64,000 nucleotides of DNA from assembly GCF_013415885.1 (NCBI RefSeq), contig NZ_CP058910.1, forward strand, positions 2,790,001-2,854,000, written 5' to 3'. Position numbers and translations under genes: made by a program. This document shows, piece by piece, positions 5,173 through 14,621 of this stretch. Below the pieces are notes generated by a model. It was not told the origin of the DNA, ran no database searches, and saw only the letters and a list, made by a program, of their open reading frames with translations. This stretch comes from Halosimplex rubrum (GTDB taxonomy: Archaea; Halobacteriota; Halobacteria; Halobacteriales; Haloarculaceae). Each line of letters begins with the position of its first letter. The first letter of the stretch is position 1.

Positions 5173-5300
5173 GCCTCGGGGTCAAGCCCCGAGGCTTGTC
5201 AGTGGGCTCCCGCTCTATCCGCGCAGGGCGGAAGGCGTGAAAGTGCCATTCGCGTTCAGCGTCCCTGACTTGAGGGCCAGTTGACTGGTGGCCCGTCCAG
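5169..5300 (-). ncRNA. Candidate omega/reRNA at 3' end of tnpB
   Basis: TnpB elements produce a guide RNA from the tnpB 3' end through the right end, with the adjacent flank as guide. Here the right end has a perfect 9-bp stem with a TCAAG loop (5173-5195) just before the junction. Transcription on the minus strand would run into SRAP sequence (5168 downward), so the guide would begin near GACCAGGTCGTTCGG. The 5' limit of the RNA is a guess. Confidence 0.35.
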
Positions 5301-6444
5301 CACCAGACTTGAGCCAGTGCTGGACAAGCCGCCACCCGATATTCCGAGCGGCGTTATAATCGGCGTGGAGTTTCTTTCCACACTTCAGACACTCGAACTC
5401 ATCACCATCACGGTTGTCCTCGTGGGTAAATCCGCACTCGTCGTGACTACACCGCTGTGACGTGTAGGCAGGGGCAACATCGTCTACGTCGATGCCGTAC
5501 TCTTCGGCTTTGTATTCGACGTGGCGTTCGAGTTCGCGGAACGCCCACTGCTGGAACTTGCTGGCGTTCGAGATACGCTTCCGTATGTGGTTCAAATTCT
5601 CGAACGCAATCGCCGTGCAGTCATTCTCCACGGCCTCCTGCACAATCGCTTTCGAGACGCGGTGGAGGTAGTCCGCACTCCACCGAGAAAACCGTGAGCC
5701 GATGCTCTTGATGGTGAGGTGCGCGGAGCGAGTGCCTGTCTGTTGGAGGTTGCCGCGCCGACGTTCATACTCGTCGCGTTTGTGGTTGAGGTAGTCTGCA
5801 TTACCGAGGAACGCTCCCGTGCTGGTGACGGCGAGGTATCCGTCCACGTTCAAATCGACGCCGAGAACCACTCCGTTCTCGGGTTGCTGGTCACCAGAAT
5901 CAGCGGGTTCGACTTCTTTCTCGACTGCGACGTGGAGGTAGTACGTGCCGTCACGTTTGTGGAGCGTGGCTTCCTTGCGTTCCCAGTCGTCCGTCCAATA
6001 CTCCGCAAACGGCGTCCCTTCCTCATCTTCGGGTGTGACAAACTCGGCGGTCACGCGGTCGTCCACGGTGGCGAGGGTAACGTGGTCGTCGTTGTACGTG
6101 ATGGTGCGTCCGTTGTACACGACCACGCTTCCTCGGAACTCGGGCTTGCTGGCTTTCTTGCCGTCGTCAAGGATACGGTCTTTGCAGTTGCCGAGGGCGT
6201 CGGCGGCGAGGTTGCGGGCGGATTGGACGAGGCTGGCTTGCAGACCAGTCTGCTCCCGAACAGTAGTGTAGGTCTGTTCGTGGAGCGTGTTCTTCGTGTC
6301 CTTGATCTGTGTGGGGTCGTCACTCCATCCAGCGTCAGCGACGTGTTGGGCCGCTTGACGGAATTGCTCGAACGTCTCGTCGAGGACACTGTGAGCGTCC
6401 TCGGGAACGTCGAGCTTGAGCTGGATGTTGCGGACGACCTCCAT
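5215..6444 (-). CDS. tnpB: TnpB RNA-guided nuclease (IS1341 family)
   Basis: 409 residues, the usual TnpB length. The split RuvC-like site is intact: Asp in GVDLNVDGYLAV, Glu in AIAFENL, and Asp in HADYNAARNIG. Between the last two lies a four-cysteine zinc finger (CSHDEC...CLKCG). The N-terminal wedge-type region begins MEVVRNIQLKLDV. TnpB cleaves DNA matching its guide and helps retain the element at its site. All motifs are present and the frame is open, so it appears functional. A strong TATA-like element lies 33 nt before the ATG. A second, partial tnpB at the end of the window is clearly related but distinct. Confidence 0.93.
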   Translation of the reverse strand: MEVVRNIQLKLDVPEDAHSVLDETFEQFRQAAQHVADAGWSDDPTQIKDTKNTLHEQTYTTVREQTGLQASLVQSARNLAADALGNCKDRILDDGKKASKPEFRGSVVVYNGRTITYNDDHVTLATVDDRVTAEFVTPEDEEGTPFAEYWTDDWERKEATLHKRDGTYYLHVAVEKEVEPADSGDQQPENGVVLGVDLNVDGYLAVTSTGAFLGNADYLNHKRDEYERRRGNLQQTGTRSAHLTIKSIGSRFSRWSADYLHRVSKAIVQEAVENDCTAIAFENLNHIRKRISNASKFQQWAFRELERHVEYKAEEYGIDVDDVAPAYTSQRCSHDECGFTHEDNRDGDEFECLKCGKKLHADYNAARNIGWRLVQHWLKSGAGRATSQLALKSGTLNANGTFTPSALRG

Positions 6445-6476
6445 ACTTCATTAGTACGCTTAGAGATACTTGAAGG

Positions 6477-6484
6477 TATTTATA
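6477..6484 (-). promoter_or_regulatory. TATA box of tnpB
   Basis: TATAAATA on the minus strand, 33 nt upstream of the tnpB ATG, consistent with a leaderless or short-leader haloarchaeal transcript that starts inside the element. Confidence 0.5.
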
Positions 6485-6588
6485 GATGCCGAGGGAGTCG
6501 GCCTTGGCACCGTGTTTAGTTTGTGTCATCGGGTGTCGGCTTCCTCCCTGCCCTCAAGGATCAGGGTATCCGCCTCACAATCACTATG

Positions 6589-6813
6589 AACTCAATCCAC
6601 GACCGGATGCCGGTCGTCCTCCCGCAGGACGCTGAGTCCGACTGGCTCGCCGCAGATCCGGACACTCGCAAGGAACTGTGCCAGCCGTACCCGAAGAACG
6701 ATCTGGACGCCTACGAAATATCGACGCGGGTCAACAACCCCGGCAACGACGATCCCCAGGTCATCGAGCCGCTGGACCACGAGCAATCGGACCTCGGCGA
6801 GTTCAGTTCCTGA
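6589..6813 (+). pseudogene. SRAP gene, 3' part after IS insertion
   Basis: Encodes the last 74 residues of the interrupted SRAP protein, starting NSIHDRMPVVLP. The HDRMP motif carries the conserved His of the SRAP active site. The tail (DPQVIEPL...SDLGEFSS) is a typical haloarchaeal SRAP C-terminus. An upstream in-frame start at 6523 lies inside the IS, so a short chimeric peptide could be made, but it would lack catalytic Cys2. Confidence 0.88.
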
Positions 6814-7001
6814 TCGGTGGCGGCGTCACGGTCACCCCATTGGCGACGCCGCTGCCAAATCGACGAGCGAGTACTCTCAATCTCGGATGGCATCTTCTGC
6901 CGTGAGGTGGTCTTCGAGATGCTTTCGCTCGGTCTTATCCAAGTGTGCTTTCCGCTGAGAGAGCATACGTACTATGCGACGATGACCCGTCTGTTATCAG
7001 G

Positions 7002-8402
7002 CTAGCACCCATCCTGATCATCTGATGCCGTGTCCGATGGCCATGTTGGGCCCTCTGGGCGGGGGATCTCCTCAACCAGATCCTTCTCGAACTGTGAAGC
7101 TCTCCAGGCTATCACGTTCTCCTTCCGCTGGACGTACTTTTCGTCGGTATCCAGCCAACGGGCAATCTCGTCGTACCTGTGACCAGCACAGAGCAACACC
7201 ATCAACGCGAAATCGAAGCGATCGAGATTGCTCTCGTTTGCATCGCCATCAATCCGGTCGAGGAACGCCTGTGAGGCATCACCGACGAACTCCATCAGTA
7301 TCTCATACAGCTCTTCGTCATCAAATCCATCAAACGTGAATCCCTCCGTGATGTTGTTCCCAGGGTCACTCTCTTCAGTATCCCAGCGAATCTCTTCGAG
7401 GGTTGCTCTTTCACAGTCGTGAAGTCTCGATAGGCGCTCTGGATTCTCCTGTTCCCAGGTCGTGATTGTGTCGGCTACTGCCTCAGATTGAGCGTGTTCG
7501 ATATAGGGATCACACCCTCGCTGCGCGATGACTGACTCGATGTTCTTTCCCGAAATCGTCAGTAGGACGGACGCACATCGATCAGTCTGTTCGAGGATCT
7601 GTGCGACTTCACGACGCGATTCGAGTTCGTCAAGGCCTGCACGCTTCTGCGCGTCGTGGACGAGGTTGTTTCTGCGTTCTTTGACCTCGACAAGCGATCC
7701 ATGGTCACCTCCGGTCAGTATTTGGATATCACAGAGTTTCTCTAATCGCTTCGCGTGCCCCATACTCCGAACGTGCTCTGTGATGCTGTCGAGACGAGCT
7801 TCCTCGCGAAAGAGTTCGTTGAGAACCGTTTCTGTCGTCAACTCTTCGATGAGTGCCGAGGCGAGGAGGAGATACGAAAAGAATGACCGCTCAACGTCGC
7901 TATCGATCTCGTCGGTGGACCGGAGTTTTTCAGCGATTTCAGCACGCTGTTCGAGATAATACTCGAGGACGTTGTCTGAGTGCCCGACGAGAGAGTTTTG
8001 GCGTTCTACGTAGGCAACTTGGAGGAGTAATTCCTTCTCGAAAGGGGTGCTCTCACTCAGCTTCTGGCACTTCTGGAGCGAACTTGTAGGGAGATGGCGG
8101 GTCAAATAATCGATGTCGTCGTAGACGAGCGGCGTATTCGTCGGGCAGTTGTCTACGATTGACTGAAAGTCGTCGTTGTCAGCGAGCTCGCTGAGTGCAG
8201 CACGTATCTCGTCGACGCTAAGTTCCCGGACATCTTCTGACGGGTCTGAGTCTTCACCGACCGGAACGACGCGGTACGACGCATCTCCAACGATGACGAC
8301 CGGCCCTTCCAGATCGAGAACCTGATATTCCCCGATAGGGCTCAGAGAGACTGTCTCTGCATCTATTGCGAACGATACGTCGAGATCAGTGTCGTCGCCC
8401 AC
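7002..8402 (-). CDS. HEPN-motif protein, putative RNase/defence factor
   Basis: 466 residues starting at GTG. The middle region contains VKERRNNLVHDA, a good match to the HEPN catalytic pattern R-x4-6-H, preceded by a helical stretch (SFFSYLLLASALIEELTTETVLNEL) as in RiboL-PSP/MAE_28990-like HEPN domains. HEPN proteins are often RNases of toxin or anti-phage systems. The N-terminal 60 residues look beta-rich and the C-terminus has a helix-turn-helix-like stretch (DEIARWLDTDEKYVQRKENVIAWR). It lies 22 nt after a 40-aa gene and downstream of the CBASS operon. The exact family is not recognised. Confidence 0.6.
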   Translation of the reverse strand: MGDDTDLDVSFAIDAETVSLSPIGEYQVLDLEGPVVIVGDASYRVVPVGEDSDPSEDVRELSVDEIRAALSELADNDDFQSIVDNCPTNTPLVYDDIDYLTRHLPTSSLQKCQKLSESTPFEKELLLQVAYVERQNSLVGHSDNVLEYYLEQRAEIAEKLRSTDEIDSDVERSFFSYLLLASALIEELTTETVLNELFREEARLDSITEHVRSMGHAKRLEKLCDIQILTGGDHGSLVEVKERRNNLVHDAQKRAGLDELESRREVAQILEQTDRCASVLLTISGKNIESVIAQRGCDPYIEHAQSEAVADTITTWEQENPERLSRLHDCERATLEEIRWDTEESDPGNNITEGFTFDGFDDEELYEILMEFVGDASQAFLDRIDGDANESNLDRFDFALMVLLCAGHRYDEIARWLDTDEKYVQRKENVIAWRASQFEKDLVEEIPRPEGPTWPSDTASDDQDGC

Positions 8403-8424
8403 GCATCAAAAACAGCAAAGAGCT

Positions 8425-8547
8425 CTATTCGACTTGGGCTTCGTACTCGTCCCAAAGCGTGTCGATGTCCGTGCCGGTCTCCTCAGAGATATGGCGCAGC
8501 AACTGCGCCCTGTTCTCGAACCGACGGAGCTGGCCCTTTGCGCTCAT
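8425..8547 (-). CDS. Small 40-aa protein upstream of HEPN gene
   Basis: Reads MSAKGQLRRFENRAQLL then an acidic helix ending EAQVE. Chosen start is ATG 8547 because a TATA-like TTTATTA lies about 27 nt upstream, as for leaderless haloarchaeal genes; the longer reading back to 8661 runs into an orc remnant. Charge is split into a basic N-terminal half and an acidic C-terminal half. It may be an antitoxin or regulator paired with the HEPN protein; that is inference from adjacency. Confidence 0.5.
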   Translation of the reverse strand: MSAKGQLRRFENRAQLLRHISEETGTDIDTLWDEYEAQVE

Positions 8548-8619
8548 AGTAGGACCTAATCGCTCCTGCAGTAATAAATCACGGGGGTGCATGCTCTCGG
8601 TCAACAAAACACGACCTAC

Positions 8620-8690
8620 CAGTGCTATAATCACCTCGTAGACGACGCGCTGGTGCGACATGATCGAGTCGATGCTCTCCTGGCAATGGG
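8620..8690 (-). pseudogene. Remnant of a second orc1/cdc6 gene
   Basis: On the minus strand the region reads AHCQESIDSIMSHQRVVYEV, closely matching AQIKQKSIDSLTPHQRVVYD in the intact Orc protein at 13439-14467 (start of the C-terminal winged helix). Similarity ends after about 20 residues and no open orc frame continues either side. It suggests a second orc copy was lost or that recombination occurred at orc. Confidence 0.6.
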
Positions 8691-8700
8691 CACTGATTTT

Positions 8701-9948
8701 CTATTGCTCTTCTGAGGCGGTGTCTGAGCCGTCTGAAAGTGACTGATTCTGTAATCGACCAGCAGGATAGTACCGACCCTCGTCTTTGCTGTAGAGATAG
8801 GTCTGGATCGGTCTAAGAGTGTTTGAGTTTCGCCCGAAGAGAAAGGCGAGCCCCATCGGGCCAGCTATGAAGAGATGAATAGTCGATGTTTTTGACAGTT
8901 CTTTGATTGCGTCTCGTACCTTGGTACGGAAAACACCTGCAGCATGGGCTGCCTGTGCCGGGGACAATTCCACACCAGGCCCATCTTCCGGTGTCAATCT
9001 GAGAACACCGTTGAAATCCGGAAGGTCGTTATGCATCTGGTCGATCTCCGGTTGCACATCGGCTGCGATGTTGACGAGCACCGCAAGCTCGGTTCCGTGA
9101 TTCGGTTGTCGCTGGAGATCTCCTTCTAACCCGCTTTCCTCTTGGTCGATATCGAGTGTCCATTCTGTCATCCCAGCAGGGCCGGTGGGTTGCATCCACG
9201 TTGCTTGGATACGACGTGTGGTTGGGAGACAGTAGCCGGCCGCGAACGCAGCGGGAAGATGCGTTCGGCCACGGAATCGGAGGGGGCGGCCCGATGCGTT
9301 TTGAATGAGACTGTCCGTTACCGTGGTTAACGCCGGGAGTAGACGCTGGTTCCATTCTTCTTGGGATGGTGGACCATGTTCGAACGATCTTGACCAGTCG
9401 ATAGCAATCGCTGGATCGATATCGTGAGCCGGCGATTCGTAGGTATCAAGTGAACATTCGAGAGGCTCACCGTCCGGTAAATAACCATCTATCCGCTCGA
9501 TCCGCTCTGATAAGACGGTCTGGACGATCTCTGTAGCTTTGTCAGACGTGGTCTCCTCCAGAGGGAGCATTTTCCAGGCGGAGAAGTCGTGGAGGATCGG
9601 TGCCTCGTTGAGTATCGATTTGGCTTCTCCAACGCTGACATCGGGACATGGCACAACGACCACGAAAAACTCGTCATCCCCGTCCCAGCGCTTGTTGAAT
9701 CCCGGCAACTCGTCGTTAAGAATGATGTCGGAGTCGGCTACGCCCTCACTGACGAGCGCAATACCACTGGCCGTTTCCGGGTTCTCCAACTGGTCGATGA
9801 TTTCGTCTCTGAGTGGCTCCGGCTTCAAATCGAAGATATCCCGCCAAATCGGCACCCCGTGTCGCTCCAGTTCCGTTTGCAGGAAGTTGGCGACGTCCGT
9901 CTGTTCGTGCTTATAGCTGAGAAATACACGGCCAGTTGGATCAGTCAT
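8701..9948 (-). CDS. TIR-SAVED CBASS effector
   Basis: 415 residues. The N-terminal TIR domain (about 1-130) starts GRVFLSYKHEQTDVANFL and has a Glu at position 80 (DSDIILNDE) where TIR NADases carry their catalytic Glu. The C-terminal SAVED domain ends with the hallmark HLFIAGPMGLAFLFGR (358-373). In known TIR-SAVED proteins the SAVED domain binds a cyclic oligonucleotide, drives filament assembly, and switches on NAD+ cleavage by TIR, killing infected cells. The start overlaps the stop of the E2-E1-JAB gene (ATGA), implying translational coupling. Third gene of the CBASS operon. Confidence 0.9.
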   Translation of the reverse strand: MTDPTGRVFLSYKHEQTDVANFLQTELERHGVPIWRDIFDLKPEPLRDEIIDQLENPETASGIALVSEGVADSDIILNDELPGFNKRWDGDDEFFVVVVPCPDVSVGEAKSILNEAPILHDFSAWKMLPLEETTSDKATEIVQTVLSERIERIDGYLPDGEPLECSLDTYESPAHDIDPAIAIDWSRSFEHGPPSQEEWNQRLLPALTTVTDSLIQNASGRPLRFRGRTHLPAAFAAGYCLPTTRRIQATWMQPTGPAGMTEWTLDIDQEESGLEGDLQRQPNHGTELAVLVNIAADVQPEIDQMHNDLPDFNGVLRLTPEDGPGVELSPAQAAHAAGVFRTKVRDAIKELSKTSTIHLFIAGPMGLAFLFGRNSNTLRPIQTYLYSKDEGRYYPAGRLQNQSLSDGSDTASEEQ

Positions 9949-12281
9949 ATATCGTCACCGACGTTGAGAGTTGAAGCAGCATCTGGGTTGTCAATCCGTT
10001 CTAACTGCTCGTATTCCTTACTATCGTGGAATAGATAGGCGTTAATCGAGAACTGACCCTCTTCGTCCTGACCGACGATGAAGAGGAGCGGATGCGGACA
10101 GTCGTAGCCGTCGTCGTTGGCGATTTCATTCATCGCAGTTCGATCGTCCCGGCTGAGATCGGGTGAAGCGCCGGGATGGTAGTGCCATTCACCGAGATAG
10201 TCGATGCCGATGCTCTCCCTGGCGTCTTTGAGCCACTCCTCGACTTTGTCGGTTCCGCGGAGGAATCGAGTTGGTTCTTGAATGGAGTCTCGCGGTGGGT
10301 CGCGGGCATTAACTACCAGTGCTGGTCCATTGAGACGGTCGGTTCCAGCCAGAATACCGCCCGTTTCACAGGGGTGTTCTTTCCGACAGCGATCATACAT
10401 CGCTTCAAGACACGTGGCCGGAATCTGTACGTTGATTGGCGATTCCGGTGCTCGCCATATAGTTCCGTCCTGGAAGGGAGGTGTGGCCTGTGAAATGGTC
10501 GGCAGCTCGTCGCCACTACCGGTCTCGAGTACGGTGAAGTGATTCTCGCGCAGGCTCAATGACGTCGCCTGATCGAGAAGTCGTGTCACTGTCCCTGCCC
10601 ACGTCATCACCCGGTCCGTTCGGATAACTGAAGCTGGGTGCCAGCAGCCGACTCGCTCGGGGATGGCATCCTCGTCTTCGTCCCATTCGATCTGTTCTTG
10701 CAACCGCCATGGATCGAACGCTTCGTTGTAATCGCTGTACGGAAAGGTATGTGAGTAAGCTGTGAAGCAGAACAACCGGCTCGCTCGCCGACCCATAGCC
10801 GCAGAGCAAAACACGACCGGGTGATTCCATCTAATCGCATCAAGAGCGCGACGAACTCCTCGTGACGCGGTACAGTCAATTACTACCTCCGCTTCTCTAA
10901 TTGGCTCCGGCAGCTCACCGCTCGGTGGAAAGGCGCTATCCACATCAAGCACCTGAGCGTACGGTGCAATTGATTCAAGCCGGTCCGCGACTGCTGTCGC
11001 CTTGTTTCGTCCCACCTCATCGATTGTTAGTGTGTGGCGAGCCACGTTGCCGATCTCATACGTATCATTGTCGACGATGGTAAGCTGCTGACAGCCGGCT
11101 CGAACGAGATTCTCGGCAACCATACTGCCGAGCGCTCCCGCTCCGATGAGCACGATGTTGCGATCCAGAAACCACTCCGTCATATGTCCGCGTCTGGTGA
11201 GTTGCTCATGCGACCAGTTGTCCGAGTCCAGCCACCGAATCTGTTCCTCTCCAGCTTCCCGCCGTTCGGCTATCTCTGGCCCCCTTCCAGTATCTCGAAA
11301 TCCGCCGGAAAGGTCATTCGGGTCCTTGAACTCCTGGATCTCGATTGGTTGCCAATAAATGATCTCGGGGTCGCCGTCGACCGAAGCTGGGATGGGGAAC
11401 CCGATTAGAAGAATCTTGACCGGTTCATCGTCCAACACGGGCTTGATATTTGCCCGTAGTTCGTACGGGTCGGTCTCGGTGCCCTCGAAAAACCCTTCCA
11501 AATCTTCCCACGTCTCCGGGGCCTCCCACGGGGGTTCAATCGGCACCTCTTCTAACAATGCCCACGCTCCGGAAACAGAGTCATCCGGATTCGAATCGAT
11601 GTATCCGCCCCATTGTGGCTGATAGACGACTTCATCGTCGCTATCTTTGAACGCACCAGTCGCGTATGTCTCTTCAGCAGTTGGCAACGAGCGGAGATTG
11701 ACCGTCCCCCACTGTCCATACGTCGTCCTCCAGTCTGGGAACGACTCCTGCGTCTCATTGAATGCGATGGTCGTGGCCGAAGCCGAGTTCGTATCGAAGG
11801 CCGGGATTTCAAACGGTTCGTCTGGTTCCCGGAGTTCCCCTTTCGCAGCATTACTTAACCACCGCAGTGCTCGGTCCATATGCCAACAGAGTCGATCACG
11901 GCTTGTGCTGGGTTCGCCGGTGGCTCCCGTTTGACTGAGGGTGTGCCCATACCGAGCAACACAGATATCGCCTCTTCGCCATGGAGTATCGTTGCTCCCA
12001 GCCACGTTCAGCTTCTGGTGGGGGAATGTGGCGGTAATGGTGTTCTCTTCTTGATCCGCAGGGTAGATCCCAATTGAACCGGCGGGGTACGTATCCCGTA
12101 GATGGAGATACCAGTCCGTCTCGCGTGGCACGTCCGGATGGGGTTCTAAGTCGTCTGGAGAAAGCCTGATCTTGACGATCCACCGTCCGTTGCTATCGTG
12201 TCGATATGGCTCTTTGAGGACGGTGACTCCGTCCCGTTCGGCAATGGCTGCAACGGCTTCTGTAATTTCGTGGGGAGGCAT
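9945..12281 (-). CDS. Single-chain E2-E1-JAB protein (Cap2-Cap3 fusion) of CBASS
   Basis: 778 residues. The N-terminal part (about 1-160) is E2-like, with Cys107 in RRGDICVARYG as candidate active Cys. A linker region precedes the ThiF/E1 domain (about 365-600) with the nucleotide loop IGAGALG (379-385), DNDTYEIGNVARH, and candidate catalytic Cys546 (VGCWHPAS). The C-terminal JAB/JAMM protease (about 615-760) has Glu639, His700, His702, Ser710 and Asp713 in exact HxHx7SxxD spacing. In type II CBASS, Cap2 ligates the CD-NTase C-terminus to target molecules and Cap3 removes it; here both are in one chain. It begins 8 nt after the CD-NTase stop. Confidence 0.9.
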   Translation of the reverse strand: MPPHEITEAVAAIAERDGVTVLKEPYRHDSNGRWIVKIRLSPDDLEPHPDVPRETDWYLHLRDTYPAGSIGIYPADQEENTITATFPHQKLNVAGSNDTPWRRGDICVARYGHTLSQTGATGEPSTSRDRLCWHMDRALRWLSNAAKGELREPDEPFEIPAFDTNSASATTIAFNETQESFPDWRTTYGQWGTVNLRSLPTAEETYATGAFKDSDDEVVYQPQWGGYIDSNPDDSVSGAWALLEEVPIEPPWEAPETWEDLEGFFEGTETDPYELRANIKPVLDDEPVKILLIGFPIPASVDGDPEIIYWQPIEIQEFKDPNDLSGGFRDTGRGPEIAERREAGEEQIRWLDSDNWSHEQLTRRGHMTEWFLDRNIVLIGAGALGSMVAENLVRAGCQQLTIVDNDTYEIGNVARHTLTIDEVGRNKATAVADRLESIAPYAQVLDVDSAFPPSGELPEPIREAEVVIDCTASRGVRRALDAIRWNHPVVFCSAAMGRRASRLFCFTAYSHTFPYSDYNEAFDPWRLQEQIEWDEDEDAIPERVGCWHPASVIRTDRVMTWAGTVTRLLDQATSLSLRENHFTVLETGSGDELPTISQATPPFQDGTIWRAPESPINVQIPATCLEAMYDRCRKEHPCETGGILAGTDRLNGPALVVNARDPPRDSIQEPTRFLRGTDKVEEWLKDARESIGIDYLGEWHYHPGASPDLSRDDRTAMNEIANDDGYDCPHPLLFIVGQDEEGQFSINAYLFHDSKEYEQLERIDNPDAASTLNVGDDI

Positions 12282-12289
12282 TTGTTACG

Positions 12290-13414
12290 TCAGCTGTCCG
12301 ACTCGGCGAACTGGTGGTCAGATGGATCCTCTACCTGTGAGGACGACCCTACTGACATGGCTTTCTTCCCTCCATCGTCAGAATCGTCGTCGCTTCCGAA
12401 GGGAGGGAATTTCTCACCGAAGAGCTGGTACCAGTAATCCCTCGATGTTTCTTTGTCCTCCTCATCCAGTGCTGTCCGCGCGAGCGCTGCGGCATCCTCT
12501 GCCTCATCGTAGAACGCCGCGAAATCTTTCCCGTCGATCTGTTTGAGGACGTCATTCTCGGGGGTTCTCGGGAGCCCGTGAGCCGGCAAGACGGGGGTTT
12601 CCTCAGCCAATGCGTCGGTCTTGAACTGCCGTGTGAGTTCTTCGAGCGTCCTTGTCACGCCTTCAGCGACGCTGTCGATATCATCAGGACAGCACTGGCC
12701 AACGATGTGCTCGAGGGGATAGCTTGTCGGTCCTTCGACGTCCGGTGTCTTCGTTCGCCGCCACCATTTGATGGCCTTGACGACGTTCACGTAGTGGCCA
12801 TCCGTGATATCGTTCTTATTTACGGTGAAGGCGATAGTCGCGAGGGGATGGGTATTCTCCCACTCGTTCTCATCTCGATGCGGGATCTTGAGCGGTTCGT
12901 CCTTCCACTCGTCGTCACCATCTGCCGACATATTGAGGGCCTCCGCCACGGTCGAAAGGTCGTCTGGACTCAGGGCCGTGCCTACGTCCAGTGAACCCAG
13001 TGATTTGACGGCTTCTCGTGTTGCCTCGCTGGGTGCCGCTGTCAAGACGAGATCGATCTCCACCTCCTCTTCCTCGATTTTGTAGGAGTGCGCATTCGGT
13101 TCCCACTGCCCCTCATAGTGTTCATCCAGGAACGGCTCGCATTTTCTTAGCGCAACATCGGTATCGAGATCACTGCTGAGATCAGAGACAAAGACGACGT
13201 CAACGTCGGATTTTTCGTCTTCTTGCGGTCTGAGTGCTGTCCACCGACGGTAGCTCCCCTGTAGAAAGTCTGCAACGTAGAACTCGTCGATGTCATCGTC
13301 ATTCTGCAAGTGGTCGCGGAGGGTTTCGTGGCCCTCCTTGTAGGCATCATTGTGCTCGTCCTGCGGGCGGATGTCTGACAGGAAGGTCTCGAATAGTGTG
13401 GGGAGTGTGGTCAT
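12290..13414 (-). CDS. CD-NTase (cGAS/DncV-like cyclic oligonucleotide synthase)
   Basis: 374 residues. Nucleotidyltransferase core: Gly53-Ser54 in LQGSYRRWTAL, Asp70 and Asp72 in KSDVDVVFV, and the third metal-binding Asp121 in EEVEIDLVL. The second half is helical with KAIKWWRR, typical of OAS-like CD-NTases. It would make the signal that activates the TIR-SAVED effector. First gene of the CBASS operon, starting 24 nt after the end of orc. The C-terminus (ending HQFAESDS) is long, acidic and probably disordered, as needed for conjugation by the E1-E2 enzyme, although it does not end in Gly. Confidence 0.92.
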   Translation of the reverse strand: MTTLPTLFETFLSDIRPQDEHNDAYKEGHETLRDHLQNDDDIDEFYVADFLQGSYRRWTALRPQEDEKSDVDVVFVSDLSSDLDTDVALRKCEPFLDEHYEGQWEPNAHSYKIEEEEVEIDLVLTAAPSEATREAVKSLGSLDVGTALSPDDLSTVAEALNMSADGDDEWKDEPLKIPHRDENEWENTHPLATIAFTVNKNDITDGHYVNVVKAIKWWRRTKTPDVEGPTSYPLEHIVGQCCPDDIDSVAEGVTRTLEELTRQFKTDALAEETPVLPAHGLPRTPENDVLKQIDGKDFAAFYDEAEDAAALARTALDEEDKETSRDYWYQLFGEKFPPFGSDDDSDDGGKKAMSVGSSSQVEDPSDHQFAESDS

Positions 13415-13435
13415 AGTGTATCGATGTTCTGGAAT

Positions 13436-13443
13436 GTTTTAAG
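13436..13443 (-). promoter_or_regulatory. TATA-like element of CBASS operon, overlapping orc stop codon
   Basis: CTTAAAAC on the minus strand, about 22-29 nt before the CD-NTase ATG. The TAA stop of orc is inside this element. It would give a leaderless CBASS transcript separate from orc read-through. Confidence 0.4.
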
Positions 13444-14467
13444 TGGTTGTTGCAGCAGGTGGTGACTCAATGATTGCGTATTCTCGATCCCGGCTCGTGC
13501 CCTCGGCCTCAAGGAGGTTGTACTGGGCCATCTTCGAGAGATAGGACCGGACTGTCCGTTTCGTCCGGGGATCGTCTACCTCGTCCGTATAGTGGTCGTG
13601 AATCTCGCTCGGGCCGAGCGGGCCGTGCTCACGAACGACGTCGTAGACGACGCGCTGGTGTGGCGTGAGTGAATCGATGCTCTTCTGCTTGATCTGGGCC
13701 CGAGCGTCTTCGGCTGAGTCGAGAAGGATGCCGTCAGTAATTCGCTCGCGATTTTCGCGGTCGGCCTTGCTGGCGGCCGTCCGAAGAATACCGATTGCGA
13801 GGCGGGCGTCGCCGGCGGCCGCGTCGGCGATCCGGTAGAGCTGGTCGTCGGTGATGACGTCCTCGTCGAGGCCCCACTTCGCCCGCGCACTCAGGATGTC
13901 GTACAGCTGCTCGTCGTGGTACTTGTCCATCCGGACGTGTTCGCTGGAGCGCAGGCGGCTCACGAGGCGGTCGTCGACGCGGCTGAACAGCTCCTCTTCC
14001 TTGTTCGCGATACAGATGATTGCGAACTGCGGGAGGCTGTGGAGGTCGTAGATGACGCTGGGGTCTTCGAGCTGGTCGACCTCATCGAGGATGACGACGG
14101 TTCGAGGACCGTCGTGCTGCTGGAGGCGGTCGACGAGTTCGTCGTGCGGCGTCGACTGTCGGTGGATGTCGATGGTCGCGCCGAGGTCGTCGAGGATCTG
14201 GTAGAGCGTGCGGAACCGCGTGTAGTTGCGCCAGCAGTTGACGTAGGTGGTCTCGACGTCGAGGACCTCTTCCCGGAGTCGTTCGGTGACGAATTGTGAG
14301 ATGCAGGTCTTGCCGGCGCCGCTGGGTCCAGTGACGATGGCCGTGTCGGCGGGTTCTCCGTTCGTGATGGGCTCAAGAACGCTGGAGAGGTGGTTGACTT
14401 CGGCGTCGCGATGCTCAACTTCCCGAGGGACGAACCCGGCGCGGAGAACGCGAGCATCGCGAATCAT
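13439..14467 (-). CDS. orc: Orc1/Cdc6 replication initiator
   Basis: 342 residues, slightly shorter than chromosomal haloarchaeal Orc1 proteins but complete. AAA+ motifs: Walker A GPSGAGKT (47-54), Walker B VVILDEVDQL, sensor-2-type arginine in GDARLAIGILR. The C-terminal winged helix (HQRVVYDVVREHGPLGPSEIHDHYTD) binds origin repeats. The upstream intergenic region holds ORB-like sequences, so orc plus origin may form the replicon of this element. A TATA-like TTTTTAGTA lies about 38 nt before the ATG. Downstream it leads directly into the CBASS operon. Confidence 0.92.
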   Translation of the reverse strand: MIRDARVLRAGFVPREVEHRDAEVNHLSSVLEPITNGEPADTAIVTGPSGAGKTCISQFVTERLREEVLDVETTYVNCWRNYTRFRTLYQILDDLGATIDIHRQSTPHDELVDRLQQHDGPRTVVILDEVDQLEDPSVIYDLHSLPQFAIICIANKEEELFSRVDDRLVSRLRSSEHVRMDKYHDEQLYDILSARAKWGLDEDVITDDQLYRIADAAAGDARLAIGILRTAASKADRENRERITDGILLDSAEDARAQIKQKSIDSLTPHQRVVYDVVREHGPLGPSEIHDHYTDEVDDPRTKRTVRSYLSKMAQYNLLEAEGTSRDREYAIIESPPAATTT

Positions 14468-14520
14468 CGTTGCTTGATAGACTGGTTTTCTGGCTAGTAC
14501 TAAAAACGTGACCGGGTTGC

Positions 14521-14621
14521 TTCCGGAAACACCCCATTTAGCCCCCTCGAACCTAACTAAATCCTCGCGCAGTAACGCGATTCCTGTTCGTGGAAACTCA
14601 AGATTTCCGGGATTTCCGGAA
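14521..14621. other. ORB-like repeats, candidate replication origin
   Basis: Three sequences resemble the haloarchaeal origin recognition box core (TTCC...GGAAAC with a flanking G string): TTCCGGAAACACCCC at 14521, TTCGTGGAAACTC at 14587, and the tandem TTTCCGGGATTTCCGGAA at 14604. They lie 50-150 bp upstream of the orc start, the usual position. Match quality is moderate, and no strongly AT-rich unwinding element was seen beyond TTTAG and AACTAAAT stretches. Confidence 0.35.

Follow-up and report, generated by a model that had tools for sequence, protein, structure and literature searches.

The CBASS operon and its active sites

On the minus strand of the window (the whole stretch of 64,000 nucleotides from Halosimplex rubrum that was analysed, positions 2,790,001-2,854,000 within one 4.48-Mb contig) lie, head to tail, the genes for a cGAS/DncV-like nucleotidyltransferase (CD-NTase, or cyclase), an E2-E1-JAB protein (the conjugase) and a TIR-SAVED effector, which form a type II-like cyclic-oligonucleotide-based antiphage signalling system (CBASS). 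All three genes are intact (Table 1); 8 bases separate the cyclase and conjugase genes, and the conjugase and effector genes overlap by 4 bases. An operon of these three genes had been proposed from the letters alone (the original prediction below); its coordinates were exact, and its order and domains are borne out as follows: The Pfam models SMODS (71.5 bits), ThiF (91.4 bits), Prok-JAB (42.1 bits) and SAVED (100.6 bits) score above their gathering thresholds, and Prok-E2_A (20.1 against 25) and TIR_2 (27.4 against 28) score below theirs. Among solved structures the best relative of the CD-NTase is the cyclic AMP-AMP-GMP synthase 7ljl (expectation value, E, 2.4e-68), residues 32-576 of the E2-E1 part align to a solved Cap2 (7to3, E 1.3e-84), and the best relative of the effector is the TIR-SAVED protein 7qqk (E 1.4e-13). 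The JAB domain occupies residues ~612-758 of the 778-residue chain and its motif is intact, so Cap3 is not a separate protein here; a conjugase and a JAB protease fused in one chain, as the original prediction had it, are thus confirmed.

Table 1. Features of the CBASS operon and of its neighbourhood (positions within the window)
Feature	Position	Strand	Evidence
CD-NTase, E. cloacae CdnD type, 374 aa	13414-12290	-	SMODS domain; 7ljl match
C-terminal extension codons E371-S-D-S374 plus stop, behind Ala370	12290-12304	-	junction DNA; codons of 16 systems
E2-E1-JAB (fused Cap2 and Cap3), 778 aa	12281-9945	-	Pfam, PADLOC, Cap2 structure alignment
TIR-SAVED effector, 415 aa	9948-8701	-	Pfam SAVED, TIR_2; 7qqk match
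Orc1/Cdc6-like AAA+ protein, 342 aa	13439-14467	-	TIGR02928, 183.1 bits against a cut-off of 181.3
466-aa protein, no family assigned, downstream of CBASS	7002-8402	-	Pfam, PADLOC, NCBIfam and PDB comparisons
40-aa open reading frame between effector and 466-aa gene	8425-8547	-	letter-identical in L078 and L079 (there annotated WP_008528531.1)

The active sites are conserved throughout the 28 distinct haloarchaeal fused systems described below. In the conjugase, His88 and Cys107 of E2 are invariant (28/28), as are Gly380, Gly382, Gly385, Asp404, Asn412, Arg415, His416, Lys427, Asp469 and Cys546 of E1 and the JAMM residues Glu639, His700, His702, Ser710 and Asp713 of JAB; Glu698 is replaced by Asp in one protein. 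The original prediction had therefore named Cys546, His700 and His702 correctly as catalytic residues, and Cys107 and Cys546 are also invariant in the four bacterial Cap2 rows aligned. Gly53, Asp72 and Asp121 of the CD-NTase are present in all 28 systems, and its G-S and D-V-D motifs are invariant across the nine archaeal and bacterial cyclases aligned. Glu80 of the TIR domain is likewise invariant in all 28 systems, and its position in the 7qqk alignment suggests that it is catalytic, as the 7qqk residue aligned to it presumably is.

Distribution of the fused protein

Searches for the same architecture, as suggested with the original prediction, gave 28 distinct haloarchaeal fused systems, of which 16, that of the window among them, form a near clade and 12 are more distant; a genome present in two collections was counted once, and G809 and Halobaculum XH14, which have identical CD-NTase genes, were counted as one. 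The 15 other members of the near clade are 89-97% identical to the window in the fused protein. Among the 391 genomes of the class searched, 20 match, 16 with a full-length protein (41-100% identity, the window's own genome included) and four with E1 only; all 16 full-length matches are fused. The fused protein also occurs in nine named haloarchaeal contigs, and its plasmid relatives include six at 93-97% identity and two Haloplanus rubicundus plasmids at 54.5%. With the cyclase as query, members were found in 14 of 392, 10 of 146, 12 of 170 and 4 of 125 genomes (overlapping sets, the first two of which contain the window's own genome). The order cyclase, fused protein, effector is kept in every haloarchaeal locus read, the effector lying off the contig end in two. 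The fusion is thus not an oddity and occurs in several haloarchaeal families. The hosts of the near clade belong to Haloarculaceae, Haloferacaceae and a third family (G344), and its spread across at least three host families points to recent horizontal transfer. In one near relative, Halobellus rufus (L027), the TIR-SAVED gene is frame-broken near residue 257 and the cyclase and conjugase are intact.

Outside the class the JAB domain was found in a frame of its own. In G564, from the same phylum, it is a separate open frame of 173 residues. In six bacterial plasmid systems it is annotated as a separate gene just behind Cap2 (overlapping it in five), with the JAMM motif present in all six. Unannotated JAB frames lie directly behind Cap2 in the plasmid records L048, L050, L072 and L074, so these too are split and not fused, and viral contig L055 has a separate JAB frame in the same place. 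Searches of the viral collection with the conjugase as single query found no relative, and searches of it with the cyclase, with alignments and with bacterial cyclase queries found only bacterial-type loci (hosts not stated); two bacterial cyclase queries found no relative among phage records.

In trees of E2-E1, JAB and the cyclase the haloarchaeal systems group apart from the bacterial ones (support 100/100, 100/99 and 100/100, respectively), a grouping that fits a single fusion event, the root not being fixed. The tree program warns of long branches (the Deinococcus actinosclerus rows, from locus L071, have very long ones), and the trees were used for the haloarchaeal part only.

The C-terminal tail of the CD-NTase

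A CD-NTase that ends in Gly or Ala is a feature of type II systems, and the window protein lacks it: its sequence ends SDHQFAESDS, the conserved QFA ending at residue 370 of 374 and the terminal residue being Ser. All 16 near-clade systems have such a four-residue tail (ESDS, EADS, VSDS, KSDS, ASDS, ESDN or ETDN), whose last residue is Ser or Asn and in no case Gly or Ala. Eleven of the 12 distant cyclases stop at HQFA, QRFA, HRFA, HQFG or QRFG; the remaining one (G441, 56% identical) ends SDQEFAWSN, with a different tail of three residues (WSN), and its cassette is intact. Phe369 and Ala/Gly370 are therefore conserved in 28 of 28 systems, with a tail behind them in 17 (the near clade and G441) and none in 11, and it is this deep conservation, with a tail behind it in 17 of the 28, that is the strong point.

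How might the tail have arisen? The tailless systems G208 and G179 branch between G441 and the near clade, so either two gains of a tail or one gain and two losses are needed; the unlike lengths of the two kinds of tail favour two gains. In L011 and L097 the Ala codon is followed by TAG, where the near clade has GAG, GTG, AAG or GCG, and from these codons the tail probably began as a lost stop codon.

Seventeen bacterial-type loci were read for comparison (12 plasmid records and five viral contigs, three of which have the same ending). The 12 were taken from 25 bacterial plasmid records, nine Enterobacter and four Salmonella records being left aside, as were 15 more distant records beyond the first 33 listed. 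In 14 of these 17 loci the cyclase stops at F-A or F-G, in two (L055 and L068, below) it is extended, and three Enterobacter and Klebsiella plasmid cyclases end GRFA. A Spirosoma cyclase is without the terminal motif and has no cap2 listed nearby. The Deinococcus actinosclerus plasmid locus (L071) has GWWHA in E1 where the others have GCWHP and a JAB without ETGG, and its cyclase still ends GGFA; the locus may be degraded or belong to another type.

Selection on the near-clade systems

The ratio of nonsynonymous to synonymous substitution rates (dN/dS) among the 16 near-clade systems is 0.126 for the cyclase core and 0.151, 0.149, 0.122 and 0.103 for the E2, middle, E1 and JAB parts of the fused protein, respectively. 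The TIR-SAVED gene gives 0.153 in 14 of the 16, two being left out for a broken gene and a contig end. The conjugase and the protease are not decaying, and E2, E1 and JAB are constrained despite the tail; a decaying system is ruled out by these values. The three genes of the operon are thus both intact and under purifying selection (0.10-0.15 in E2, E1 and JAB). The fused protein is not a chance product, since 16 of the 391 genomes carry it in full length and its three domains have these values.

The tail has a dN/dS of 0.354, and codons 365-370, directly before it, are without amino-acid change in the 16 systems. Residue 371 has four states (E, V, K and A), and 3 of 370 core sites have as many or more; the tail as a whole has six extra residue states, which are reached by 5 of 367 four-codon core windows.

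A proposed maturation step

From what was observed (gene order, domains, intact active sites, the tail, its distribution and the selection on the genes) we think it reasonably probable that in this type II-like CBASS, in which Cap2 and Cap3 are one chain, the near-clade CD-NTase is made as a precursor that the fused JAB domain matures. The JAB domain would cut the CD-NTase behind Ala370 and so remove ESDS; E1 would adenylate the exposed Ala370 and transfer the protein through Cys546 to Cys107 of E2, and the CD-NTase would then be conjugated to a target. Upon infection the CD-NTase would make a cyclic oligonucleotide, probably a trinucleotide in view of its kinship with the cyclic AMP-AMP-GMP synthase, SAVED would bind it and TIR would destroy nicotinamide adenine dinucleotide; the JAB domain could release conjugates too. 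All steps after the first cut are modelled on characterised relatives, and a review gives the TIR-SAVED ligand as cyclic triadenylate (cA3; PMC10419184). The cut itself is suggested by the tail together with the report that a Cap3 cuts a linear cGAS fusion at the point where cGAS ends (Jenson et al. 2023, PMC10097602). In the same work the last cGAS residue is a highly conserved Gly or Ala among 1,583 proteins from operons with full-length Cap2 and Cap3, and changing the Gly of E. coli cGAS to Ser, Val, Arg or Trp abolished both the thioester and the conjugate.

The original prediction held that activation and reversal would be stoichiometrically linked. That is a fair inference from the fusion and is incomplete, since the encoded CD-NTase has no C-terminal Gly or Ala; with four further residues in the way, the JAB domain is probably needed as a maturase before conjugation can begin. 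Maturation by JAB would go further than a linkage of activation and reversal, in that there would be no activation without the protease. We more tentatively suggest that the CD-NTase may be zymogen-like, with conjugation licensed by proteolysis and with maturase, ligase and deconjugase in one polypeptide. If so, loss of the JAB site would abolish natural cyclase conjugation and not raise it as in E. coli, viral inhibition of JAB would silence the system, and there would be a ubiquitin-style precursor step for a modifier without a ubiquitin fold. What Cap3 does for the system is not settled: it lowers conjugation in E. coli (PMC10097602), yet a review describes both Cap2 and Cap3 as required for defence against some phages, which implies that deconjugation has benefits not yet understood (PMC10419184). 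Whether Cap3 can play a positive role could be tested directly, and with simple genetics, on a tailed CD-NTase that depends on the prior action of its own JAB domain.

Several points weigh against the proposed maturation by JAB. Tails are not exclusive to the fusion: the cyclase of viral contig L068 (near 7150; its cap2 runs off the contig) ends GRFA-DE, and that at L055:7980-9065 (also in L064), whose JAB gene is separate, ends GRFS-QIC, with Ser in place of the Ala. In the CD-NTase gene 69 of 365 six-codon windows are invariant; such stretches are common, and the invariance of SDHQFA in the near clade was for this reason dropped as strong evidence. Variation at three or more of four sites, as in the tail, occurs in 43 of 367 windows and so is no more than mildly unusual. 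The tail could also be taken off by a protease of the host. An AlphaFold2 model of the 778-residue protein, built from 12 alignment rows, had a mean predicted local distance difference test score (pLDDT) of 40.7 and was not used; maturation would require that JAB reach the tail. In the bacterial systems tested by Jenson et al. inactive Cap3 raised conjugation and did not abolish it, and deconjugation had a negligible effect on cyclic GMP-AMP (cGAMP) output (PMC10097602). Their cyclases end at Gly or Ala and are tailless, so this result and maturation by JAB need not conflict. In addition, Kruger et al. (2024, PMC11153139) propose that conjugation keeps a Bacillus cyclase inactive until infection, when it is released; conjugation may therefore not have the same sign in every system.

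Other explanations of the tail

Could the tail be a harmless product of stop-codon loss that a host carboxypeptidase or a housekeeping JAMM protease trims, leaving only deconjugation to the fused JAB domain? Its drift (E, V, K or A at residue 371) and its probable origin from a lost TAG are what this explanation would lead one to expect, and other JAMM proteases do exist in haloarchaea. It needs, however, a second protease that stops exactly at Ala370, when a cognate protease of likely that specificity is encoded in the same operon and the Cap3 of another system makes such a cut (PMC10097602), and we consider host trimming unlikely.

It is a good deal less likely that the tailed lineage no longer conjugates its cyclase and that the cassette works as a plain CD-NTase with its effector. 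The encoded C-terminus of Ser or Asn would agree with such a loss, given that a C-terminal Ser was not conjugated in E. coli cGAS (PMC10097602), but selection on E2, E1 and JAB is about as strong as that on the cyclase (dN/dS 0.10-0.15), none of the 28 proteins has lost any of the catalytic residues checked, and the near clade comprises 16 distinct systems in at least three host families. We also give very little credence to the idea that this is an ordinary type II CBASS, peculiar only in its gene fusion, whose E1-E2 uses the extended C-terminus directly. Gene order, cyclase and effector do agree with known CBASS; the terminal residue, however, is Ser in some of the 16 near-clade systems, Asn in others and Gly or Ala in none, and the substitutions by Ser, Val, Arg and Trp mentioned above abolished thioester and conjugate alike (PMC10097602). 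Maturation of the precursor by the fused JAB domain is thus the reading that we prefer.

Relation to known systems

The idea that the fusion is new in itself was rejected, since two earlier descriptions precede it. The PADLOC model PDLC00835, named E1-E2, matches positions 1-778 of 778 with 1632 bits; it represents the same fused family, already catalogued, and it is silent on both the JAB domain and the cyclase tail. Iyer et al. (2006, PMC1779556) described an E2-E1-JAB triple module beside a metallo-beta-lactamase (operon type 6a) and, as a separate operon type, E2-E1 with JAB and a nucleotidyltransferase. The 6A-MBL triple module shares with the window protein the order E2, E1, JAB in one polypeptide, but its usual partner is the metallo-beta-lactamase, and a Pfam scan of the nine genes between 5215 and 16595 found no metallo-beta-lactamase domain. 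The corresponding NCBIfam model NF058523 (6A-MBL cap2_3) gives 240.1 bits against a cut-off of 320, so the window system does not pass as 6A-MBL.

The closest cyclase is that of the type II CBASS of Enterobacter cloacae (CdnD, Cap2, Cap3, Cap4), to whose Cap2 the E2-E1 part aligns. That system differs from the one in the window in its separate Cap3, in an effector other than TIR-SAVED and in a cGAS whose last residue is Ala (PMC10097602), where the window CD-NTase is tailed. The TIR-SAVED protein of Microbacterium ketosireducens (7qqk) has the same architecture as the window effector and a distant sequence. The precursors of ubiquitin, SUMO and Atg8 have a short C-terminal extension that hides the residue to be conjugated, and their own deconjugating proteases mature them; here, by contrast, the modifier would be a nucleotide cyclase whose protease and ligase share a single chain.

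In the open-licence literature of PubMed Central (PMC) we found no report of a tailed CD-NTase or of maturation by Cap3, and no experiments on conjugation by a haloarchaeal fused cassette. The statement in the original prediction that no characterised haloarchaeal example is known holds in so far as no experimental paper was found there, and falls short in that the fusion had been catalogued. CBASS is reported to be present in archaeal genomes (PMC10544981). Haloferax 48N has two CBASS operons with transcripts in chronic infection, both cyclases being lower in the infected strain (PMC12714723); the part of that article drawn on here mentions neither Cap2 nor ubiquitin.

Genomic surroundings

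An Orc1/Cdc6-like gene lies 24 bp upstream of the CD-NTase gene on the same strand. Of the 15 near-clade loci searched, 12 have the gene in full length (residues 1-341 or more) and three, L024, L025 and L102, have it in part (L024 and L102 are one genome); it was not found in the nine distant loci searched, and it is possibly a regulator or a replication remnant. The 466-aa protein encoded downstream of the effector has no Pfam or PADLOC match at E 0.01, no NCBIfam match and no significant PDB match (its one Pfam match, E 0.23, is insignificant); it contains an RNNLVH stretch that we take to resemble the HEPN Rx4H motif. Its gene is present in 11 of the 15 near-clade loci searched and absent from L028, L029, L058 and L104.

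A block of ~6586-14529 is common to several near relatives. Beyond the cyclase, the plus strand carries at 16959-27763 genes that match models for HmaC/DUF499, for the methylase HmaB and for helicases (HmaA, PLD_Helicase and PbeA); judging by these matches they are probably a second defence system near the CBASS, and the region has the appearance of a defence island into which a mobile CBASS block was taken up. A TnpB/OrfB-type gene (5215-6444) lies within a stretch of ~5173-6585 that is missing from L023, L026, L027, L028 and L078, in all of which the flanks of this stretch are joined directly.

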